From: Rhodopirellula sp.
GTDB lineage: Bacteria > Planctomycetota > Planctomycetia > Pirellulales > Pirellulaceae
Direction: 5' to 3'
Length of the DNA stretch: 58,412 bases
NCBI GenBank assembly: GCA_002690925.1
Contig: NZGD01000136.1
Coordinates: forward strand, 1 to 58,412
Both the position numbers and the translations under genes were made by a program. Positions 42,348 to 58,412 of the stretch are shown piece after piece; position 1 is the first letter of the stretch, and each line of letters opens with the position of its first letter. The notes beneath the pieces were generated by a model. It searched no databases. It had not been told where the DNA came from and saw only the letters and a list, made by a program, of their open reading frames with translations.

Positions 42348-45300
42348 CTAATGTTCAGTAGCTAGATACACTTCAGCATCCGCAACAACGTGATCCGAGG
42401 CGTGCCGCAATCGCTGATATATTTGCTGAGGATACTGCAAATCTCCCGCCAAAAGAGCATCTTCCATTTCCCGTGCCAACTGATGTGCATGAATCGCTCC
42501 CACCGACAGTGACGCCCCTTTGTAGGTATGAACAGCGCGAAGGATTTCGTCACGATCGTTCTGCTCAATAGCACGCTGCACAGACTGCAACAGACAATTG
42601 GACTCTCCCAGGTAAACACGAAGCAGATCCCGCAGCAGCTCCTCATCGCCGCCAACTGCTTGTCGGGCCTGACTCCAGCAGATCGCCTCACCGTCCTCTG
42701 GTTGAGGCAAGGTCGACTTTCCGACCCGGCTGGCAGTAGCGATGCGTGCGTGCTCCACGTCGGGACCATTGGTTGCTGTCTTGCCGCTTTTCGATTCTGA
42801 ACCAGAATCACTCGCAGGGTCGGCGGATTGCTCGAGGCCCGATTTCCGTAGTTTTTGAAAATCGGCTGGCTCATTATCTGCCAGCTTGCTGTTTGCCAAG
42901 TCCGAACTGGACGCCTTCTCTGCCGCCAACCCGAGCACCGCAGAGAGTTTCTCGAGAACGATCCCTACTCGAATCGGTTTTGCCACGTATTCGTCCATTC
43001 CGACGGAAAGACATTTCTCACGATCACCTTTCATGGCATGAGCCGTCATCGCAATGATCGGTAAGTACAGTCCACTTACCGCTTCGCGGTTCCGAATTGC
43101 CTTCGTCGCCTCGATACCATCCATGATCGGCATCTGAATGTCCATCAATAGAACGTCAAACTTCTGCCGCATCGATACCTCGACCGCTTCTCGACCATCC
43201 TTGACTGTCGTGACATGGTGCCCATGCTTTTCAAGTACTCCCACCGCAAGCCGCTGATTGATCACATTGTCTTCGGCAAGCAGGATTCTGAGCTTCCCTA
43301 ATTCAGAGACTGAAGCTGAACCAGCATCGATCACAACATCTTCAGGTTCAGCAACTCCAAGACAACGTACAATCGAATCAAACAAATCAGATTGCTTGAC
43401 TGGCTTCATAAGGCGTTCCGTAATCCCTAACCGAGTGCGAACATCGCTGTCTCCATCCCGCCCGCCACTTGTGAGAACGATGACCTGATTTTCCGCGAAG
43501 CCAACCTGCTGTCGCATTTCGGCGATGAAGCCGTACCCATTCATGACTGGCATATTCACGTCGGTTACAACGAGAGAGATCGGCTCTTCACGAGCATCCG
43601 CGTTTTGCAATTCCTTGAGAGCCATTTCGGCAGAGTTGGCAAGATAGGGCACCATCCCCCAATTGGACAGCATTTCATCAAGAATCATCAGGTTCGTTTC
43701 ATTATCATCAACAACCAATACCCGTGTTCCACCAACAACCACGACACCACGTTCCTGTTGTTGCTCAATCCCATCTGGAGCCCGCGTGAAAGATAACTGG
43801 AAGTGAAAATTACTTCCTCGATCCAACTGGCTGGAGAGTTCGATTTGTCCGCCCATCAGCTTTACCAACCGGGACGAGATCGATAGTCCCAACCCTGTGC
43901 CGCCATAACGCCGGGTGGTGGACGTATCTGCCTGCTCAAACTCCCCGAAGATCGCACCATGCTTCTCTTCCGGAATTCCAATTCCCGTATCCCTGACTGA
44001 GATTTCCAAGCGCACCTCACCCTGAGTGGCGGGTAGATCGGAAACATGCACCAAGACCTCACCCGCGTGCGTGAACTTGACTGCGTTCCCAATCAAATTA
44101 TTCATCACCTGACGCAAACGCCCGGAATCGCCAATGACAAAGCGAGGTACATGCGGATCAACTCTAAAAGCCAATTCAATGCTTTTCCCGTGCGCACGCG
44201 GCGCGAAGGCAGCGATTGTGTCACCAAGACTCTCGCGAAGGTCGAACACACGTTCTTCCAACTCGAGTTTCCCTGCTTCGATTTTTGAAAAATCAAGTAC
44301 ATCGTTGATCACGCCAAGCAGAGCATCTCCGGACTCCTCCACCATGGACAGGTACTTGCGCTGGTAATCATCCAATTTCGTATCTAAAACCAATTCAGTC
44401 ATCCCAATGATGGCATTCATAGGCGTACGAATCTCGTGACTCATATTTGCCAGGAAATCACTTTTCGCTCGATTAGCACGATCAGCCACTTCCTTGGCAT
44501 TCAGGATTTCCCGCTCGGCTCGTTTGCGTGCCGTGATGTCGTGCCCGATTCCTACAACACCGTTGACGACACCATTTTCATCAATGAGCGGAACTTTGGT
44601 GGTCAGCAACCAAATATCGTCTCCCGACTTTGCCTTGTGCGATTCTTCCCGATCAAGCAAAGATTCGCGTGTGCGCATCACGATCTGATCATCTGCGACA
44701 TAGTTGCAAGCTAATTCAGGTGGGGAGAAATCATAATCATTCCTGCCGACCAACTCAGACGGGTTATCAAGTTTCAACAACCGTAGTAAGGCAGCATTTG
44801 CAGTCACAAATCTTCCAGCACGATCCTTGACATAAATCAGGTCTGGCACGTTGTCGATAATGGTTTTGAGAAGATCTCTTTCCCGGGCAAGTCCCTGCTC
44901 AGCCTGCTTTTGCCTCGTAACATCCCGTGAAATACCAAAGGTGCCAATGACATTACCTTTTTTGTCTTTCAAGGGAACCTTGGTCGTACTACACCACGTT
45001 TCAGAACCATCACCAAAGGTCTCATGCTCGATTTCAGCAAGAATGGCCTGCCCTGTCTTCATGATTCCGCGTTCATCAGCCAGAGCTTTTCGGGAATGCT
45101 CCAGTGAAAAAAAGTCAGCATCTGACTTACCCACAGCCTCCCGTGGCTCGGCAAGCCCGAATTTGGTCGCACAACTTTGGCTCAACCGAATGAACCGACT
45201 GTCAGAATCTTTGAAGTAGACAGAATCAGGCACCGTTTCCAGAAGGGTCGCCAGTAGAAACTTTTCGAATTCAATCTGGTGCTCCGCATCTTTCTGGTCA

Positions 45301-46085
45301 CTGACATCCCAGAACATGACCTGAATCCCCACCACATCTCCTTCGGCACTATACACAGGTGCCTTCCAGACCTCAGCATGGATGGTTTTTTCGTTACCGA
45401 TCTGATGCCGTTCGACATTGTGGTACAGCTCGCCGGACTGCATGACCCGGCGATCATCAGTCATGTACTTCTTTGCCAAGTCAGCCGGAAACAGATCGAA
45501 ATCAGTCTTACCGATCAGCTCTGCAACTGAAACACCGAGCTGATCACATGCCTGTGCGTTCGCGTACTGAACCCTACCACGTGCATCTTTTCGAAGAACA
45601 CTTAACGGCAAACTCTCGACCAAAGAATGGTACACCGCCTCAGCATCACGAAGCGCAGCGTCAGAAGACGTATCCGCCTCACGTTGAGTTCTCTGCATAT
45701 GGGTCAGGCCCACAACTGCTAGGCTGCCTTCTTCTGACCGTCGACAATGCACCTGTTCACGCACCAGATGCGTGGTCTGCTTTGTATCAATCACACGAAA
45801 TTCGCGGTCCAAACACGCGTTCTCTTCGTGATGAAGAAGAAAGTCCGCAAACTGCTGGTGAACCCATGATCGGTCCTCAGGATGCACAGCGCCAGACCAT
45901 AATGTTGAGTCTGCCATCAGTTCTTCCGCTGGCCGCCCGTACAGATTTCCTGCGGCTGGGTGAATCCACTGAAGCGTCCCATCTGGATTGGCCGTCCACG
46001 AAATTTCGCGAACCTCCTTCAGGATCGCGTCGGGAAGTTGCGGACCCTCGTACCCCAATCCGTTATTGATCTCTGCGTTTGCCAT
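42348..46085 (-). CDS. Hybrid histidine kinase with four PAS, two REC and Hpt domains
   Basis: This 1245-residue sensor kinase has no membrane helix, so it is probably cytoplasmic. Four PAS domains lie at about residues 20-130, 150-265, 275-390 and 405-520. HisKA follows, with His550 in NMSHEIRTPMN. The HATPase domain has N-box NNLIGNAVKF, DTGIGIP (699-705) and GGTGLGLSIS (728-737). Receiver 1 (788-910) has phospho-acceptor Asp842 in TDVNMP, receiver 2 (932-1050) Asp982 in MDIQMP, and the Hpt domain (about 1135-1240) His1186 in VHTYKGAS. All key residues are present. A disordered linker (1055-1130) joins receiver 2 and Hpt. No response regulator gene is adjacent, so the output partner is elsewhere. 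Confidence 0.96.
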   Translation of the reverse strand: MANAEINNGLGYEGPQLPDAILKEVREISWTANPDGTLQWIHPAAGNLYGRPAEELMADSTLWSGAVHPEDRSWVHQQFADFLLHHEENACLDREFRVIDTKQTTHLVREQVHCRRSEEGSLAVVGLTHMQRTQREADTSSDAALRDAEAVYHSLVESLPLSVLRKDARGRVQYANAQACDQLGVSVAELIGKTDFDLFPADLAKKYMTDDRRVMQSGELYHNVERHQIGNEKTIHAEVWKAPVYSAEGDVVGIQVMFWDVSDQKDAEHQIEFEKFLLATLLETVPDSVYFKDSDSRFIRLSQSCATKFGLAEPREAVGKSDADFFSLEHSRKALADERGIMKTGQAILAEIEHETFGDGSETWCSTTKVPLKDKKGNVIGTFGISRDVTRQKQAEQGLARERDLLKTIIDNVPDLIYVKDRAGRFVTANAALLRLLKLDNPSELVGRNDYDFSPPELACNYVADDQIVMRTRESLLDREESHKAKSGDDIWLLTTKVPLIDENGVVNGVVGIGHDITARKRAEREILNAKEVADRANRAKSDFLANMSHEIRTPMNAIIGMTELVLDTKLDDYQRKYLSMVEESGDALLGVINDVLDFSKIEAGKLELEERVFDLRESLGDTIAAFAPRAHGKSIELAFRVDPHVPRFVIGDSGRLRQVMNNLIGNAVKFTHAGEVLVHVSDLPATQGEVRLEISVRDTGIGIPEEKHGAIFGEFEQADTSTTRRYGGTGLGLSISSRLVKLMGGQIELSSQLDRGSNFHFQLSFTRAPDGIEQQQERGVVVVGGTRVLVVDDNETNLMILDEMLSNWGMVPYLANSAEMALKELQNADAREEPISLVVTDVNMPVMNGYGFIAEMRQQVGFAENQVIVLTSGGRDGDSDVRTRLGITERLMKPVKQSDLFDSIVRCLGVAEPEDVVIDAGSASVSELGKLRILLAEDNVINQRLAVGVLEKHGHHVTTVKDGREAVEVSMRQKFDVLLMDIQMPIMDGIEATKAIRNREAVSGLYLPIIAMTAHAMKGDREKCLSVGMDEYVAKPIRVGIVLEKLSAVLGLAAEKASSSDLANSKLADNEPADFQKLRKSGLEQSADPASDSGSESKSGKTATNGPDVEHARIATASRVGKSTLPQPEDGEAICWSQARQAVGGDEELLRDLLRVYLGESNCLLQSVQRAIEQNDRDEILRAVHTYKGASLSVGAIHAHQLAREMEDALLAGDLQYPQQIYQRLRHASDHVVADAEVYLATEH

Positions 46086-51132: not shown

Positions 51133-52620
51133 TTACAAACCTTGCAGTGCCACGCCCCCGGTTTTTTTTGCTAACTGGATCAAGTCCTCGTTTTTTTCTT
51201 CCACAATGAAAACGTGCAGCATGATCCCCTTGAGCTCTTTGGGTTTCACGTTGATTCCATGATCACCGTCCGTGACGATAATCAATTCGGGACGCTCTGC
51301 ATCCACATCATCAACGACACTACGAATTCTCTTGATGCCCTCGCGCAAGGCAAGATTGATGTCGGTGTCATCCCCCATAAAAAAATCGTATTCGAGACGG
51401 CGAATTTCATCCTGTGCGTCAGCGACATCCTGCACCATCACCTGCTCATGCACGGCGGAATCGAAAAAACTGTACCCGAGAATCGCTTCTCGCCGCATCA
51501 CCGCTCGTAAACGATTCATCAGAATTGCCAAGAGCTTGTAAATCCGTTCACCCTGCTGCATGGATTTGCTGCGATCCAGCATGGCATAAAACACCTGCTT
51601 CTTGTCGCTTCTTTTGACTTTCTCACGCACCATGAAACTTTTGGTTGCAAGCCGATAACGAAAGTACTTTGCAGAGGCAACCTTGACCGCCCAAGCGGCA
51701 GGTGCCATGCGTGGCAACTCATCGTAGGACGCCATCATCCTCATTCGGGTTTGATCTCCATCTGCAGCAGGGAGCATTTTTTTCTCGAAGCGTGGCTGAA
51801 AAGCCACGTATTCATTTGCAACACGCGAAATCCGCAGCAAAGCCTCCATACTCGGTTCCGCCAGCAAGCGTGAAGCAACATTCAAACGCCGTACAGAAAG
51901 CGGGTGGATCTCTTTTTCCGCTGACACCTCACTCTTCCCACCAAAACATTCGGAAAACAGCGACGCAATCTTTCCCCGCGTATCAATATTCTCTACCAAC
52001 TGAATGGCGGTCACGCCCCGATCAACAGACATTTGAGAGTGATCTATTTTTTCCTCAGGCTTCAGCTTGCTTTCGTCAGGCAGACATTCCAGCAAGTCAA
52101 CTTCATCAGACTCAAGTCCACCAACCTCCTGAAGAGCCCAATTGATCTGTTCGGTGATCTTCTCAGCAGGAATACCAACTGCCAGAGACCGCTTGGCTGT
52201 TGCAATCACGGCCACATTGGCAATCGCTCGATCAATATCAGTACGTCCATGAATCTGCTCAAAGTCGATTCCCCCCAACAAAAGAGACAGCCGATAGTAC
52301 AGCTCAGCATCGCGAGTGGAACCCTGCAGATAATCATCCAGAAAACGCCAGCCCTTCCACATCCGCATGCGATAGGTCAGCCGCGTCCGACGTTCAATCT
52401 CATTTTTCCCCGCAAGCTTCCCCTCATCAACCAAGTGGACTCCATCCCAAATGATCGGCAATGGTAGATGCTGCATTCCGATGGCATCAAGTTTCTTCAC
52501 CACCTCAAGTGAATTGATTTGCTCTCGACGCTCGCTCATCTCCGGGTAGGTCACGTGGGTATGGAACCGAAGAAAGTCCCGATAACGCCGCTCAACACGA
52601 ATGCGTTCCACTGGATTCAT
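51133..52620 (-). CDS. VWA-domain partner of the MoxR pair (ViaA-like)
   Basis: This 495-residue cytoplasmic protein has a mostly helical N-terminal region (about residues 1-330) and a C-terminal von Willebrand A domain (about 340-495). The metal site is complete: D349-R-S-K-S353 (DxSxS), Thr419 in GDDTDINLAL and Asp451 in IIVTDGDHG. Length and layout match ViaA, the E. coli VWA partner of the MoxR ATPase RavA, though I see no clear sequence identity outside the VWA core. Its ATG overlaps the stop of the tandem ATPase gene (ATGA), so the two are translated together and very probably interact. The target of the pair is unknown. Confidence 0.88.
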   Translation of the reverse strand: MNPVERIRVERRYRDFLRFHTHVTYPEMSERREQINSLEVVKKLDAIGMQHLPLPIIWDGVHLVDEGKLAGKNEIERRTRLTYRMRMWKGWRFLDDYLQGSTRDAELYYRLSLLLGGIDFEQIHGRTDIDRAIANVAVIATAKRSLAVGIPAEKITEQINWALQEVGGLESDEVDLLECLPDESKLKPEEKIDHSQMSVDRGVTAIQLVENIDTRGKIASLFSECFGGKSEVSAEKEIHPLSVRRLNVASRLLAEPSMEALLRISRVANEYVAFQPRFEKKMLPAADGDQTRMRMMASYDELPRMAPAAWAVKVASAKYFRYRLATKSFMVREKVKRSDKKQVFYAMLDRSKSMQQGERIYKLLAILMNRLRAVMRREAILGYSFFDSAVHEQVMVQDVADAQDEIRRLEYDFFMGDDTDINLALREGIKRIRSVVDDVDAERPELIIVTDGDHGINVKPKELKGIMLHVFIVEEKNEDLIQLAKKTGGVALQGL

Positions 52621-54695
52621 CTCCCCGCTTCAATTTCACTCGCCAACTCATCGACGCGTTCCTCTGAAAGCCGCTGCCACTGCTGCAACTTGGGATCAGA
52701 AACTTGCAAATACTCCAGTTCATGCTTGAGGGCATCAATGCTGCTCATCAGTTCCAGCATCTCAGCAATTGCCCGGTCGTTCATTTCCAAACGGGCGTCT
52801 TCTTCGAGAACACTGGCCTGCTCAAAAATCTTATTAATATCCAGCATTTTCCCGTGCAAACGTTCGGTTCGCTCGTCTATGTCGCTCAATAAGACTTCCA
52901 CTCCACCCTCCAGCAACGCGGACCTTATCAACCCTTCGACATCTCGCTTGTAGGACTCCATACCCTGCACATTTCGAATGGTAAGAATATCCTCCACAAT
53001 CATCTTCTTGCGACCATGTCGGCCGACACTGTTCCCTGCAAGTCGCAGGCCTCCCAACGCAATTCGCGGTGAAACGTGGAACCCGTTTTCTCGATCATCA
53101 TTTAGATTTGCGATCACGTGAGCGTATATGCGATGCAATTTACGTTTATGCGAACTGGCATTTGGATTAGCAATCCGAAACAATTCTTCGTAATCAGCCT
53201 GTTCATAAGAAGGCCATCGAACTTCCAGTTGTAATGGAAATCGTTCCAGCAAAGCTTTGACGGCATCGCTGTCTTTTGCAAACTGCCGCGGATCCTTGTT
53301 CGTGCAAGCGACGATTACTTTTGACTTCATCTCAACGGGGGTGCTTCCATTCATGAAAGTCCGTCGAGTCAACACGTCCTTCAACGGCAACAATGCCTGA
53401 GAAGAAGCATCAAGGATCTCCTCCAAAACCACCACTTCATATGGCAGAAACGAGCGTGCTGTATCGTACTCGAGACAGACATCCAATTTTGCAATATTCG
53501 GTCCTCCCCAAAGCCGGTCCTCACTCATGCCTTCACCAAATGACTGCAGGAAAATCTGTTCGTCGGTGTAGCCCATGCTTCGCAATGCGGCCATCACCAT
53601 CTCAGATTTACCATGCCCGCCAGGGCCCCATAGCAGCACGTTACAAGGTTGAAAAAAACTGTGCGTCAACACCTGCACAATTTCATCACAGTGAATGAAT
53701 CGCGACTTGAGCGTGGTCGCTGTTAAATCAGGAATGGCAGATCTTGGTGCCTTGAGCGGGCCCTCGTCCTGACTACTGAAATCTCCGCGACCGAGCTGTA
53801 TGACAAAGTTTTCCTCGTTGGGTAGGCGTCTTTCGATTTTCCGAGATAAGTCCGCTGTGTAGGACTGCATCCCTTGAACAAAACGGATGCTCTGAAATGC
53901 ATCAGCAACAATACAGTCATCGCCTCTGACTCTTGCTGTATTCGAAACGACTTCCAACGCTTGCAGCGCCATCCTTGGCGACATGACGAACGTTTTGGTT
54001 TCATTTAAACCGGCAATTACCGACGAAAGCAGGCGATGCAACTCCCTACCTCCACGCGTTGCACCTGGCCTTACCTTTGCAAACAACTCTGCATAATTTT
54101 TCTGTTCATAACTGGGCCACCGCACCTCCTTCTGAAGCAAAAACCGCTCCATCAACGCCTGAACCGCATCGTTCCCATCACCAAATTCACGAGGGTCCTT
54201 GTTTGTGCAAGCAATCACGACCTTGGCGGAAAGGGGCACTCGATCAGGCCCGTTCATAAAGATGCGTCGAGTCAATACATCTTTCAATGGCAACAACGAC
54301 TGTGCAGGCGCATCAAAAATTTCCTCGAAAACAACGGCTTTGTACTGCGATGAAAGGAAGGACCTGTCCGTGTCGTATCGAAGACAAGTATCTAACGAAG
54401 CCATGTCAGGACCACCCCAAAGACGGTCCTCGCTCATCCCTTCGCCGAAGGACTGAATAAAAATCTCGTCATCCTTGAGCCCTAATGACTTTAGAGCCGT
54501 AAGGACCATATCCGACTTGCCATGCCCGCCCGGCCCCCACAAAAGCAAGTTGCAGGGTTCATAAAAGGCTGCCGAAATCAGATCAGCAACTTCTTGACTG
54601 TAAACAAACTTGTCCGCTAAAGCCTCTCGGGCCGTGGGAAGAATCTCCACGCGCGGCGTCGGCAACCATGCCCAATCGTTGGATTGCATTGACAT
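52617..54695 (-). CDS. Tandem MoxR-type AAA+ ATPase
   Basis: This protein of about 692 residues carries two MoxR-family AAA+ modules in one chain. Module 1 spans about 30-290, with Walker A WGPGGHGKS at 53-61, Walker B VVFEE at 121-125 and sensor 1 VIACTNKDP. Module 2 spans about 330-600, with the same Walker A at 355-363, VVLEE at 422-426 and IVACTNKDP. Both contain QSFGEGMSEDRLWGGP and LPLKDVLTRR. Hand alignment of 68 residues around Walker A gives 51 identities. Both Walker B motifs have Glu-Glu instead of Asp-Glu. A coiled-coil-like tail (about 600-690) follows. ATG at 54695 has AGGAG four bases upstream; the frame is open to 54749. MoxR ATPases pair with VWA proteins as chaperones; the VWA gene overlaps its stop. 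Confidence 0.9.
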   Translation of the reverse strand: MSMQSNDWAWLPTPRVEILPTAREALADKFVYSQEVADLISAAFYEPCNLLLWGPGGHGKSDMVLTALKSLGLKDDEIFIQSFGEGMSEDRLWGGPDMASLDTCLRYDTDRSFLSSQYKAVVFEEIFDAPAQSLLPLKDVLTRRIFMNGPDRVPLSAKVVIACTNKDPREFGDGNDAVQALMERFLLQKEVRWPSYEQKNYAELFAKVRPGATRGGRELHRLLSSVIAGLNETKTFVMSPRMALQALEVVSNTARVRGDDCIVADAFQSIRFVQGMQSYTADLSRKIERRLPNEENFVIQLGRGDFSSQDEGPLKAPRSAIPDLTATTLKSRFIHCDEIVQVLTHSFFQPCNVLLWGPGGHGKSEMVMAALRSMGYTDEQIFLQSFGEGMSEDRLWGGPNIAKLDVCLEYDTARSFLPYEVVVLEEILDASSQALLPLKDVLTRRTFMNGSTPVEMKSKVIVACTNKDPRQFAKDSDAVKALLERFPLQLEVRWPSYEQADYEELFRIANPNASSHKRKLHRIYAHVIANLNDDRENGFHVSPRIALGGLRLAGNSVGRHGRKKMIVEDILTIRNVQGMESYKRDVEGLIRSALLEGGVEVLLSDIDERTERLHGKMLDINKIFEQASVLEEDARLEMNDRAIAEMLELMSSIDALKHELEYLQVSDPKLQQWQRLSEERVDELASEIEAGR

Positions 54696-55277: not shown

Positions 55278-56180
55278 ATGCGCATTCTGGATCTCATCAC
55301 ACCGAAGGATCTTTCTCGGGTAGCCAAGCTTCAAATACTGGCCCGGCAGGTCGTCGAGGGACTTTGCTCGGGACGGCACCGATCCCCGCACAAGGGTTTC
55401 AGCGTCGAATTCAAAGAGCACCGGCCGTACGTCCGTGGTGACGAACTGAGCGACATTGATTGGAAAGTGTTCGCAAAAAGCGACCGGTTGTATATCCGAG
55501 AATTTGAAGAAGATACCAATCTGCGTTGCACCTTGGTTGTCGACCGCAGTGGATCCATGCGATACCGGGGCGAACGCTCCGAGGGTCGCAGCAAGTATGA
55601 ATATGCACAACAACTTGCTGCCTCACTTGCGTACCTGATGCTCGGCCAGCAGGATACGGTTGGACTGATTACTTTCGATGATGACTTACGGGACCAGTTG
55701 CCCGCACGCAGCCGACCATCACACCTGCAGGCATTGCTTTCAGCTTTAGCAATCGATAGCAGCAAGCGTGAAACAGACCTTGGTGGCGTATTTAGAAAAA
55801 TTGCCTCAAAGCTTGGGCGACGTGGACTGGTCATCATCATTTCTGATGCAATGGGTGACACAAGTTCAATCTCGCGGTCTCTGGCACACATCAGGAGCTC
55901 GAAACACGAAGTGCTGTTTTTCCAAATCATGGATCCTGACGAGGTTGATTTTCCGTTCTCCGGACGGATTCAATTCCGTGATCTTGAACAAGCCGAAAAC
56001 GAACACACCGTCGAAGCAGTCTCGATCAGAGAAGCCTACCTGAGTCGTCTACGCGAGCACGAAGAAAAACTTCGCGCTGCCTGCCGAACCAACAAGGTTG
56101 ATTTAATTCGTTTGACAACGGATCGCCCCTTTGCCGATGCGTTACACGAATACTTGGCATTGCGGAGGAGATTGAGATGA
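55278..56180 (+). CDS. DUF58 (VWA-like) protein
   Basis: This 300-residue protein of the DUF58 family lacks membrane segments. The N-terminal core has the signature HKGFSVEFKEHRPYVRGDEL and IDWKVFAKSDRLYIREFE (about 38-76). A VWA-type domain follows, with D89-R-S-G-S93-M as the metal site and IIISDAMGD as a later strand. DUF58 proteins usually lie between a MoxR ATPase and BatA-like proteins. The next gene, starting at 56177, overlaps it as ATGA and is BatA-like, which fits. The start ATG at 55278 is weakly supported by AGAAG. It is divergent from the tandem MoxR gene, which may supply the ATPase. Confidence 0.93.
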   Translation: MRILDLITPKDLSRVAKLQILARQVVEGLCSGRHRSPHKGFSVEFKEHRPYVRGDELSDIDWKVFAKSDRLYIREFEEDTNLRCTLVVDRSGSMRYRGERSEGRSKYEYAQQLAASLAYLMLGQQDTVGLITFDDDLRDQLPARSRPSHLQALLSALAIDSSKRETDLGGVFRKIASKLGRRGLVIIISDAMGDTSSISRSLAHIRSSKHEVLFFQIMDPDEVDFPFSGRIQFRDLEQAENEHTVEAVSIREAYLSRLREHEEKLRAACRTNKVDLIRLTTDRPFADALHEYLALRRRLR

Positions 56181-58412
56181 CACTGCTCAATGGCCTCCTT
56201 GCCTTCGGCGCGCTCGCGTTCACGATACCGCTTGCAATTCACCTGTTATTCCGTAGTCGTTTCAAGACGGTTGACTGGGGTGCCATGCACTTGCTGGACA
56301 CGGTGGTCCGCGTCAATCGGCGACGAATTCAACTACTGCATTTGCTATTACTTTTACTAAGATGCCTCTTGCCAGTCCTGCTGGCACTTTGTCTTGCACG
56401 CCCTATTTTGACAGGATTCCAAACGCTACCGGGGGATGCTCCTCAATCGCTAATCATTGCCATTGATGACAGCCGCAGCATGTCAGCCCGCGACGGGGGC
56501 GAGACAGGTATGTCACGGATGGGACGTCTGCAACAGGCTTTGAACGCCATTGTTGGTGGATTATCGAGACGGGACGAGATCATTCTCATACGTGCCAGTG
56601 ATGTCGGGTCACCGGCCGCTTCCATGGGTGTGCAGGAGGCGTTGCGGCAGATCAAAATGCTGAAAACCGAATATGGTCCAGTCGATCTGGATCGACTGGT
56701 CCGTGCCGCGGTCGAGGCTTCTGACGAGAGCTCGCATCCACAACGCCGTGTAATCATCGCATCCGACTTCCAAAGTCAAATGGTACACAGCGGTGTGCTT
56801 GAATCGCTGGAACGCATGGCCACTTCACTTTCCGCCATGACCATTCGCCCGGTAATCAGTTTTTTAAATTTTGGACAGGACTCCGAACAACTGGCAAACG
56901 TGTCAGTGGACTCGATTGACATTGAATCGCCCGCCGTTGTGGCAGGCCGCAATGCCCGCTATACCGCACGCATTCGCAGCTCCAGTGATACCCCAGCTCG
57001 CGACCTCCGACTCGTCTGGTCCGTCGATGGACAAATGCTGGAACCTCGCACCGTCACCATTCCCCCTCGATCCAGCATTACATCTCAGCTTACGAGAAAT
57101 ATTGAACAGGTGGGCGTGCACGAGCTAAGCCTGTTGGTTGAACACAGTGATGCCTTACTATCCGACAATCGACGCTCCATTGCAGTTGATGTGATTCGCG
57201 AGGTCTCAGTGCTACTAGTCGACGGACTCCCTAGCGACAAACCACTCGAGGGTGAGACCGACTACCTTGCGATCGCACTCAGCCCCTTTGCGTTTGGTGG
57301 ACAGGATCAACCCGATGCCGTGCGCACTTCAGTGATTGAGCCAGAACAGTTGGTAAACGAACTGAACGAGCAAACTCCTGACGTGATCATCATGGCGAAT
57401 GTCGCAAGCATTGAAGGCGAGTCGCGGCAGCGGATTTCAGAATTTGTGAATGATGGCGGCAGCCTGATCCTGTTTGATGGTGATCAGGTCAACGCTGACT
57501 CTTACAACACACCTTGGGAATCCAACGGGACGACATGGGCCTTGCCAGCACAGCTTGGAGAAATAGCTGGCGAGCCCACGGATGCAAGCGGTCAACTCGC
57601 GAGCGAGGAACCGCCCCCGTTGCCAATTGGAAATGCAAATCCGCTTTACACACCTTGGAATCTTCTCGGCACAGAAGATCAACGACCATTTGCCGACGTC
57701 GAAATTTATCGATACCGAAAGCTGACTCCCAACCGAGTCGCCAATCTCGAATTGGACAACGATACTGCGGACGGTCCTGGGCCAGATGCAACCTCCGCAA
57801 ATACGTCCGGAGCAGAGACAAACACCGTTACAAATTTATTGACGATGGCAAACGGCGATCCCATCGCTGTCTCGGGACGACGTGGTAAAGGACGAGTGCT
57901 GCAGTTCGCAATTCCCTGCAATACTGCATGGTCCTCGCTTCCCATGCGACTGGTTTACCTGCCGATGGTACAACAACTTGTTCTTGACTTGGCGGGCTCG
58001 CGTAAACAGACAACCTTGGATGTGGGCAGCGGCTTCTCCGTCTCCTTGGATGAATTTGTGTCAGCAACCACCTCTCCTCAGCCCAAAAAAGCGGAAGGCA
58101 GTCCCTCACTCGAAGACGACCAGACGAATGCAAGCGTCACGTACAGCGTCGAATACGCCGGAGAACCTGAAGAACTCATCGAAAACATTGAGGAAGGCGA
58201 CAGCGAACTGTTGATTCCATCAACTCAGAGGGGTGGTACTTACATCTTTCGAAAAACGTTATCTCAAAAGGCGGGTAGCCCCGAGATCAGTTCGACACTT
58301 CGAGTCGTCGAAGTACCGTCGACTGAATCAAAGCTGCGAGATGTAGAGGCAGCCAGATTAGCCACTGCTGCTGATTTGATCGACGCCAATATCTACACGG
58401 ATAGGCAGGAAC
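56177..58412 (+). CDS. BatA-like membrane protein with VWA domain, N-terminal part
   Basis: At least 745 codons, open to the right edge. It starts with the BatA N-terminal domain (PF07584 type): MTLLNGLLAFGALAFTIPL (helix 1), HLLFRSRFKTVDWGAMHLL, and a second helix (about residues 52-75). The VWA domain has the metal site D97-D-S-R-S101 and continues to about residue 240. It is followed by Ig-like and glutamine-amidotransferase-fold-like segments (ISEFVNDGGSLILFDG, about 420-440; RGKGRVLQFAIPC, about 570-582). BatA-type proteins are named after a proposed role in aerotolerance; the function is still unclear. GGAGGAG precedes the ATG, which overlaps the DUF58 stop as ATGA. Confidence 0.92.
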   Translation, partial: MTLLNGLLAFGALAFTIPLAIHLLFRSRFKTVDWGAMHLLDTVVRVNRRRIQLLHLLLLLLRCLLPVLLALCLARPILTGFQTLPGDAPQSLIIAIDDSRSMSARDGGETGMSRMGRLQQALNAIVGGLSRRDEIILIRASDVGSPAASMGVQEALRQIKMLKTEYGPVDLDRLVRAAVEASDESSHPQRRVIIASDFQSQMVHSGVLESLERMATSLSAMTIRPVISFLNFGQDSEQLANVSVDSIDIESPAVVAGRNARYTARIRSSSDTPARDLRLVWSVDGQMLEPRTVTIPPRSSITSQLTRNIEQVGVHELSLLVEHSDALLSDNRRSIAVDVIREVSVLLVDGLPSDKPLEGETDYLAIALSPFAFGGQDQPDAVRTSVIEPEQLVNELNEQTPDVIIMANVASIEGESRQRISEFVNDGGSLILFDGDQVNADSYNTPWESNGTTWALPAQLGEIAGEPTDASGQLASEEPPPLPIGNANPLYTPWNLLGTEDQRPFADVEIYRYRKLTPNRVANLELDNDTADGPGPDATSANTSGAETNTVTNLLTMANGDPIAVSGRRGKGRVLQFAIPCNTAWSSLPMRLVYLPMVQQLVLDLAGSRKQTTLDVGSGFSVSLDEFVSATTSPQPKKAEGSPSLEDDQTNASVTYSVEYAGEPEELIENIEEGDSELLIPSTQRGGTYIFRKTLSQKAGSPEISSTLRVVEVPSTESKLRDVEAARLATAADLIDANIYTDRQE

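Follow-up and report, generated by a model that had tools for sequence, protein, structure and literature searches.

A tandem MoxR-type ATPase and its VWA partner in Pirellulaceae, with single-module relatives on viral contigs and in candidate-phylum bacteria

The DNA analysed here, called the window throughout, is a stretch of 58,412 nucleotides from Rhodopirellula sp. of the Pirellulaceae (contig NZGD01000136.1, assembly GCA_002690925.1). On its reverse strand lie a gene for a MoxR-type AAA+ ATPase with two modules in one chain and, directly downstream, a gene for a protein that ends with a VWA fold. Some planctomycetes carry two motor units per chain in this way, always with one VWA helper, and the closest relatives have a single unit. 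The features of the locus are as follows.

52617..54695, reverse strand: two-module MoxR-type AAA+ ATPase, 692 amino acids (690 if the start is at 54689)
53826..54623, reverse strand: AAA+ module 1, residues 25-290, Walker A at 54513-54536
53721..53825, reverse strand: inter-module linker, residues 291-325, the least conserved of all parts
52902..53720, reverse strand: AAA+ module 2, residues 326-598, Walker A at 53604-53627
52620..52901, reverse strand: C-terminal helical tail, residues 599-692, with an [LI]xVxD motif
52617..52620, reverse strand: ATGA overlap, ATPase stop and VWA gene start
51133..52620, reverse strand: VWA partner protein, 495 amino acids
51136..51633, reverse strand: C-terminal VWA fold, about residues 330-495
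51562..51576, reverse strand: DxSxS of the metal ion-dependent adhesion site (MIDAS), residues 349-353
51736..51786, reverse strand: candidate pore finger, a predicted beta-hairpin, residues 279-295, proposed by analogy with NorD

An initial annotation of this DNA had described two complete MoxR modules in one chain and a stop codon overlapping the VWA start, and both descriptions hold. AAA+ motifs are present in both modules, which share 50.9% identity across 289 aligned positions. Compared half against half by BLASTP, they are identical at 143 of 261 positions with an E value of 6e-109, so that their likeness is not due to chance, and the 51 identities in 68 residues that had been counted by hand are exact for residues 47-114 against 350-417. 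The two Walker A sites exist as proposed, only slightly displaced, since GPGGHGKS occupies residues 54-61 and 357-364 and not 53-61 and 355-363. Both modules of all 16 two-module sequences (leaving out the partial L017 as well as L015 and L016, which are on the same contigs as L031 and L032) contain GPGGHGKS, a hydrophobic-EE Walker B of the form xxFEExFDA or xxLEEILDA, TNKDP as sensor 1, an ERF arginine finger and SPR as sensor 2. Judged by these motifs, both modules look intact and active. Translation may begin at the second ATG (54689) and not at 54695; in two of the 16 orthologues no start codon is possible ahead of the equivalent of M3.

Both genes are under purifying selection. The ratio of nonsynonymous to synonymous substitution rates (dN/dS) between the window pair and its nearest relative, L011, is 0.017 for module 1, 0.010 for module 2, 0.028 for the tail and 0.030 and 0.015 for the two halves of the VWA protein, values that rest on the L011 pair, the remaining pairs being saturated at synonymous sites. 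Module 1 evolves about 1.5-2.5 times faster than module 2, as measured by path lengths from the window's own modules. The tail, predicted as three long helices in an AlphaFold2 model, carries a motif common to the two-module proteins and their single-module relatives, with D667 nearly invariant (alignment A3). Because the single-module relatives have this motif, module 2 together with the tail represents the ancestral protein, and it is the extra copy that lacks a tail. As to the beta-hairpin insert of helix 2, a MoxR trait, the model shows no more than short strand bridges, one at residue 96 and one at 107.

The partner protein has an invariant MIDAS (D349, S351, S353, T419 and D451 in 25 of 25 aligned VWA sequences), and its Pfam match to VWA_2 is sub-threshold, at 24.1 bits for a cut-off of 27. 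Its AlphaFold2 model (predicted local distance difference test score, pLDDT, 70.2; predicted template modelling score, pTM, 0.63) matches VWA domains, with CLCA1 first (E 1.1e-6) and NorD of the NorQD complex (9qhd_G, E 1.7e-4) and the midasin MIDAS among the others; ORF892 of Acidianus two-tailed virus ranks sixth among viral models. VWA_CoxE (PF05762) has no match in the window protein and scores above the cut-off in two of the three single-module partners scanned. On the ATPase, the bpMoxR family PF20030 matches twice, with 108.3 bits in all for a cut-off of 27, and AAA_5 matches too. In NCBIfam neither protein is above any family cut-off, and no family database names a characterised two-module class.

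The two-module MoxR and VWA pair is real and conserved. A protein search found the full-length ATPase in 12 of 149 sampled Pirellulaceae genomes, representing 5 of 68 genera, at 74-100% identity, and a search with the VWA alignment found the partner in the identical 12. Three of six sampled genomes in genus g1 carry the ATPase. Seven further records near the window (90-97% identity, one partial) are genome contigs titled Rhodopirellula, Rubripirellula or planctomycete. Within the wider class, 6 of 397 sampled genomes match at E 1e-30, each with both modules, and no single-module member was present at this threshold; among 294 genomes sampled across the phylum the only full match is the window's own genome, next to one partial match of 31%. 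The close gene coupling noted at the outset was seen in the window's genus and three others, the two genes being adjacent in four of the five genera; the measured spacings run from -4 to +3 bases, and for locus L031 alternative starts are possible. In the three genomes of genus g216 the genes are unlinked, about 0.86, 0.33 and 0.92 Mb apart, and both are kept, so that co-occurrence and not gene coupling is the constant.

Around the pair, two neighbour links at the family level recur in some genera, cl4 (only 24% identical) and cl9, and the ten neighbouring proteins scanned have housekeeping-type or no Pfam families. No neighbour gene family apart from the pair is common to all five genera. In the window, a DUF58 gene followed by a gene for a large VWA-like membrane protein occupies 55278-58411 on the forward strand, divergent from the ATPase gene and 0.6 kb away.

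Single-module relatives came from viral contigs and from candidate-phylum bacteria. A search of viral contigs with an alignment of the modules and the cellular single-module proteins gave 24 loci, and two more contigs came from scanning with the VWA alignment; with the window ATPase alone as query, the scan of viral contigs gave no match. All 26 IMG/VR contigs (L073-L096, L108 and L112), some of them near copies of one another, encode one AAA+ module in the MoxR protein, and on 25 of them a VWA relative lies directly downstream; on the remaining one the sequence breaks off within the MoxR gene. Terminase_6N matches 3 of 17 viral records, once above the cut-off, and 95 open reading frames neighbouring the viral pairs gave single matches to terminase, minor head and tail proteins. 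Because phage-gene matches are this few, the viral status of the contigs rests largely on the IMG/VR classification. Four of the viral MoxR proteins had no match among 50,697 GenBank phage records. For the window ATPase itself, named phages yielded one weak match (23.9% identity, "porphyrin biosynthetic protein") and plasmids four weak ones. Cellular single-module MoxR proteins occur in 5 of 239 genomes of the phylum of Candidatus Uhrbacteria and in 1 of 198 genomes of the phylum of an Elusimicrobia locus, and the window modules are 33-45% identical to them. The family behind the pair is unnamed and is common to uncultured phages, Pirellulaceae and candidate-phylum bacteria. Among the five genomes from the phylum of Candidatus Uhrbacteria, one has a split MoxR gene and another what looks like a split VWA gene. 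In all, three genes of the family appear to be divided between two frames, by decay or sequencing error: the MoxR genes of L069 (6887-8033), absent from all trees for this reason, and L093 (6586-8894), and the VWA gene of L067 (8647-9994). Small proteins near the candidate-phylum pairs are partly alike by eye (L018:5012-5944, L019:1559-2074, L067:7037-7387 and L068:7021-7497), and the three of them scanned have no Pfam match.

In a tree that takes the phage and candidate-phylum rows as its outgroup, all two-module rows fall into one clade (support 100/100), which divides into module 1 (98/93) and module 2 (100/99). This tree holds 16 viral, 5 cellular and 20 two-module rows, leaves out six two-module genomes and eight of the 24 viral loci, and drew a program warning of long branches. 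The modules do not fall in different MoxR subfamilies but pair as sister clades, each other's closest relatives, and therefore point to an internal duplication, as had been supposed; the tree supports its having preceded the parting of the five genera. Cellular single-module proteins nest among the viral rows, L068 with L074 (100/99) and L018 with L075 (99/92).

We have also looked for signs that the two modules have become different. At 23 positions each module is conserved yet radically different from the other. The ancestral state can be inferred for eight differing positions (any change), of which five are derived in module 2 and three in module 1. Derived residues of module 2 are near Walker B (424, 428 and 431) and those of module 1 come after the arginine finger (186 and 189). 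Located in opposite modules, these two independent clusters weakly hint at mixed contacts between module 1 and module 2; with only eight polarised positions, a module-specialised interface is unproven.

The AlphaFold2 model of the ATPase (mean pLDDT 76.6, pTM 0.71) bears on how the modules might be arranged. Among the 50 of 1,042 Foldseek matches listed, 21 are dynein or axonemal chains with a query TM of 0.48-0.55 and 29 are Clp or Hsp104 chains with a query TM of 0.22-0.26 and a root-mean-square deviation (rmsd) of 17-25 Å. Since the TM is higher to dynein than to Clp and Hsp104, the modules are predicted to sit side by side, and since the model is more like dynein than like the stacked proteins, a single ring of three chains with alternating modules would be favoured over a pseudo-dodecamer. 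At roughly even odds (about 0.5), we read the pair as a MoxR/VWA remodelling machine whose ATPase was duplicated in tandem and which would work as a three-chain alternating ring acting through the VWA protein. Its mode of action, including the ring, the finger in the pore and the remodelling of a target, is modelled by analogy on NorQ-NorD. As described in PMC13036017 and PMC9976466, a single NorD attaches to the NorQ hexamer and its VWA domain sends a finger into the pore; the NorD MIDAS is required for the target but not for attachment to NorQ, and NorD becomes twisted on hydrolysis. By this analogy, three ATPase chains would assemble into one six-module ring with modules 1 and 2 alternating, on which one VWA protein would dock. 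The beta-hairpin ahead of the VWA fold might then enter the ring pore, the MIDAS could grip an acidic residue of a target, and ATP hydrolysis would twist or stretch the VWA protein and so remodel the target.

Several observations weigh against this reading. In Walker B an E replaces the usual D, likewise in all relatives, the six single-module cellular ones included, and ATPase activity is for that reason not assured. The dynein matches are a rough fit only (TM ~0.5, rmsd 7-12 Å and about 26 Å in two chains). The model is of a single chain, with the pLDDT and pTM given above. Its module 2 rests on little alignment depth, since it is module 1 to which the single-module sequences were aligned, and AlphaFold2 may have reproduced contacts of homomeric rings on which it was trained. 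The module 1 clade had a support of 86/88 in a tree without outgroup and broke up beside very distant MoxR outgroups with very long branches, which is why the phage and candidate-phylum rows were taken as outgroup. The gene neighbours, finally, point to no target.

Another arrangement would be a double ring of six chains, the module 1 layer stacked upon that of module 2, which would make a pseudo-dodecamer of the ClpB or p97 type, and type II two-module AAA+ proteins are indeed described as stacked rings (PMC5447069). We consider it unlikely here: the Clp and Hsp104 chains, present among the Foldseek matches listed, fit as if a single module had been superposed, the tandem modules of dynein, which belong to the same MoxR/dynein clade, sit in one ring (PMC4047620), and the derived residues on the arginine-finger side of module 1 and the Walker B side of module 2 argue weakly in the same direction. 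Of the asymmetric or double-ring assembly suggested by the initial annotation, the pseudo-dodecamer is thus disfavoured by the side-by-side model, and the asymmetry would be retained in a single ring of alternating modules. Service to the DUF58/Bat-like operon starting at 55278 can hardly be credited. MoxR genes often accompany DUF58 genes, and each of the seven loci from the window's genus that extend far enough has the operon as its divergent neighbour; in the other four genera, however, the operon does not adjoin the pair, and the ATPase has its own VWA partner everywhere.

A defence or conflict function, like that of the MoxR-vWA systems which Kaur et al. 2020 reported from planctomycetes (PMC7159879), would suit the two PF20030 matches, the patchy presence in the family, the relatives on viral contigs and a weak PADLOC match of mad8 (21.1 bits). 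It is nevertheless distinctly improbable, as the pair has no third component, effector or beta-propeller, its neighbours vary by genus with those tested being of housekeeping type, and PADLOC gives no match for the VWA protein. PF20030 is moreover unspecific, since 12 of 14 control genomes, E. coli among them, also have matches that exceed its cut-off, and for this reason the bpMoxR name carries little weight. In the window's genome, where MoxR-type genes are numerous, there are 19 PF20030 matches, two in this ATPase and 17 elsewhere. We regard as very doubtful, too, a domesticated phage virion-assembly chaperone that would still act on a structure of phage origin, for instance a tail-like particle. 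The closest relatives are single-module pairs on viral contigs with the candidate-phylum proteins nested among them, MoxR-VWA pairs are implicated in the way an archaeal virus develops its tails and have been proposed to act in jumbo phages (PMC4124505, PMC7824862), and the VWA model matches ORF892 of that archaeal virus. Yet there is no phage structural gene among seven neighbours tested in Pirellulaceae (three genera plus g246), and the tree, whose root is not fixed, gives no direction of transfer.

The proposed remodelling machine shares parts of its design with several known systems. The viral and candidate-phylum pair is like that of the window in its MoxR family, tail motif, VWA family with MIDAS and gene order, and differs in that its ATPase has a single AAA+ module. 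NorQ-NorD and CbbQ-CbbO likewise consist of a MoxR ATPase and a partner with a C-terminal VWA domain, with one NorD per NorQ hexamer and a finger in the pore, features extended to the window pair by analogy; they differ in a single-module ATPase, another N-terminal region of the VWA protein and known targets. The ternary bpMoxR systems, reported in planctomycetes, have a VWA partner and give the best Pfam match, but the window pair has two modules and neither a beta-propeller C-terminal to the vWA domain nor a third component. Their P-loop is often GXXXTAKS, in contrast to GPGGHGKS of the window ATPase. With a VWA protein that ends with the VWA fold and a P-loop not of the TAKS form, membership in these systems was rejected. 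RavA-ViaA is also a MoxR ATPase with a VWA partner, the ATPase having a single module. The label RavA-type given by the initial annotation has to be withdrawn, as phmmer against PDB chains found RavA at E 0.08 over the AAA+ core only, without a match to the LARA domain, and GPGGHGKS is not the GPPGTAKS found in a RavA/bpMoxR-like protein of the window's genome. Phage CobS-CobT and p618-p892 of Acidianus two-tailed virus are virus-borne pairs of AAA+ and VWA proteins, unlike the window ATPase in having a single module and distant in sequence; a weak PHROG match to porphyrin biosynthesis reached 32.7 bits.

Several MoxR-clade AAA+ modules in one chain are otherwise found in dynein, midasin and VWA8, which are eukaryotic, with six modules in dynein and midasin and with the VWA domain fused in-chain in midasin and VWA8, whereas it is a separate protein in the window pair. 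VWA8 of animals is described as having two AAA+ domains and a VWA domain (PMC10743472), and the two-module architecture therefore has a eukaryotic parallel. Among the titles and abstracts listed by searches of open-licence papers, none describes a bacterial two-module MoxR. It is a tentative proposal, one that we would not call probable, that an obligate three-chain ring with alternating specialised modules represents a bacterial first step towards the concatenated rings of dynein and midasin, taken from a MoxR-VWA pair shared with phages. If the ring does alternate, this would be a natural two-module MoxR with surviving single-module relatives, and it would become possible to test in a bacterium how six identical subunits gave way to a concatenated ring of the dynein or midasin kind. 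The pair shared by uncultured phages, Pirellulaceae and candidate-phylum bacteria is also of interest as one without a named family, partner target or structure.

Elsewhere in the window, the reverse strand at 42348-46085 encodes a protein of 1245 residues. By eye it resembles a hybrid sensor kinase in which several PAS-like repeats and two receivers are combined with an Hpt-like part at the C-terminus.

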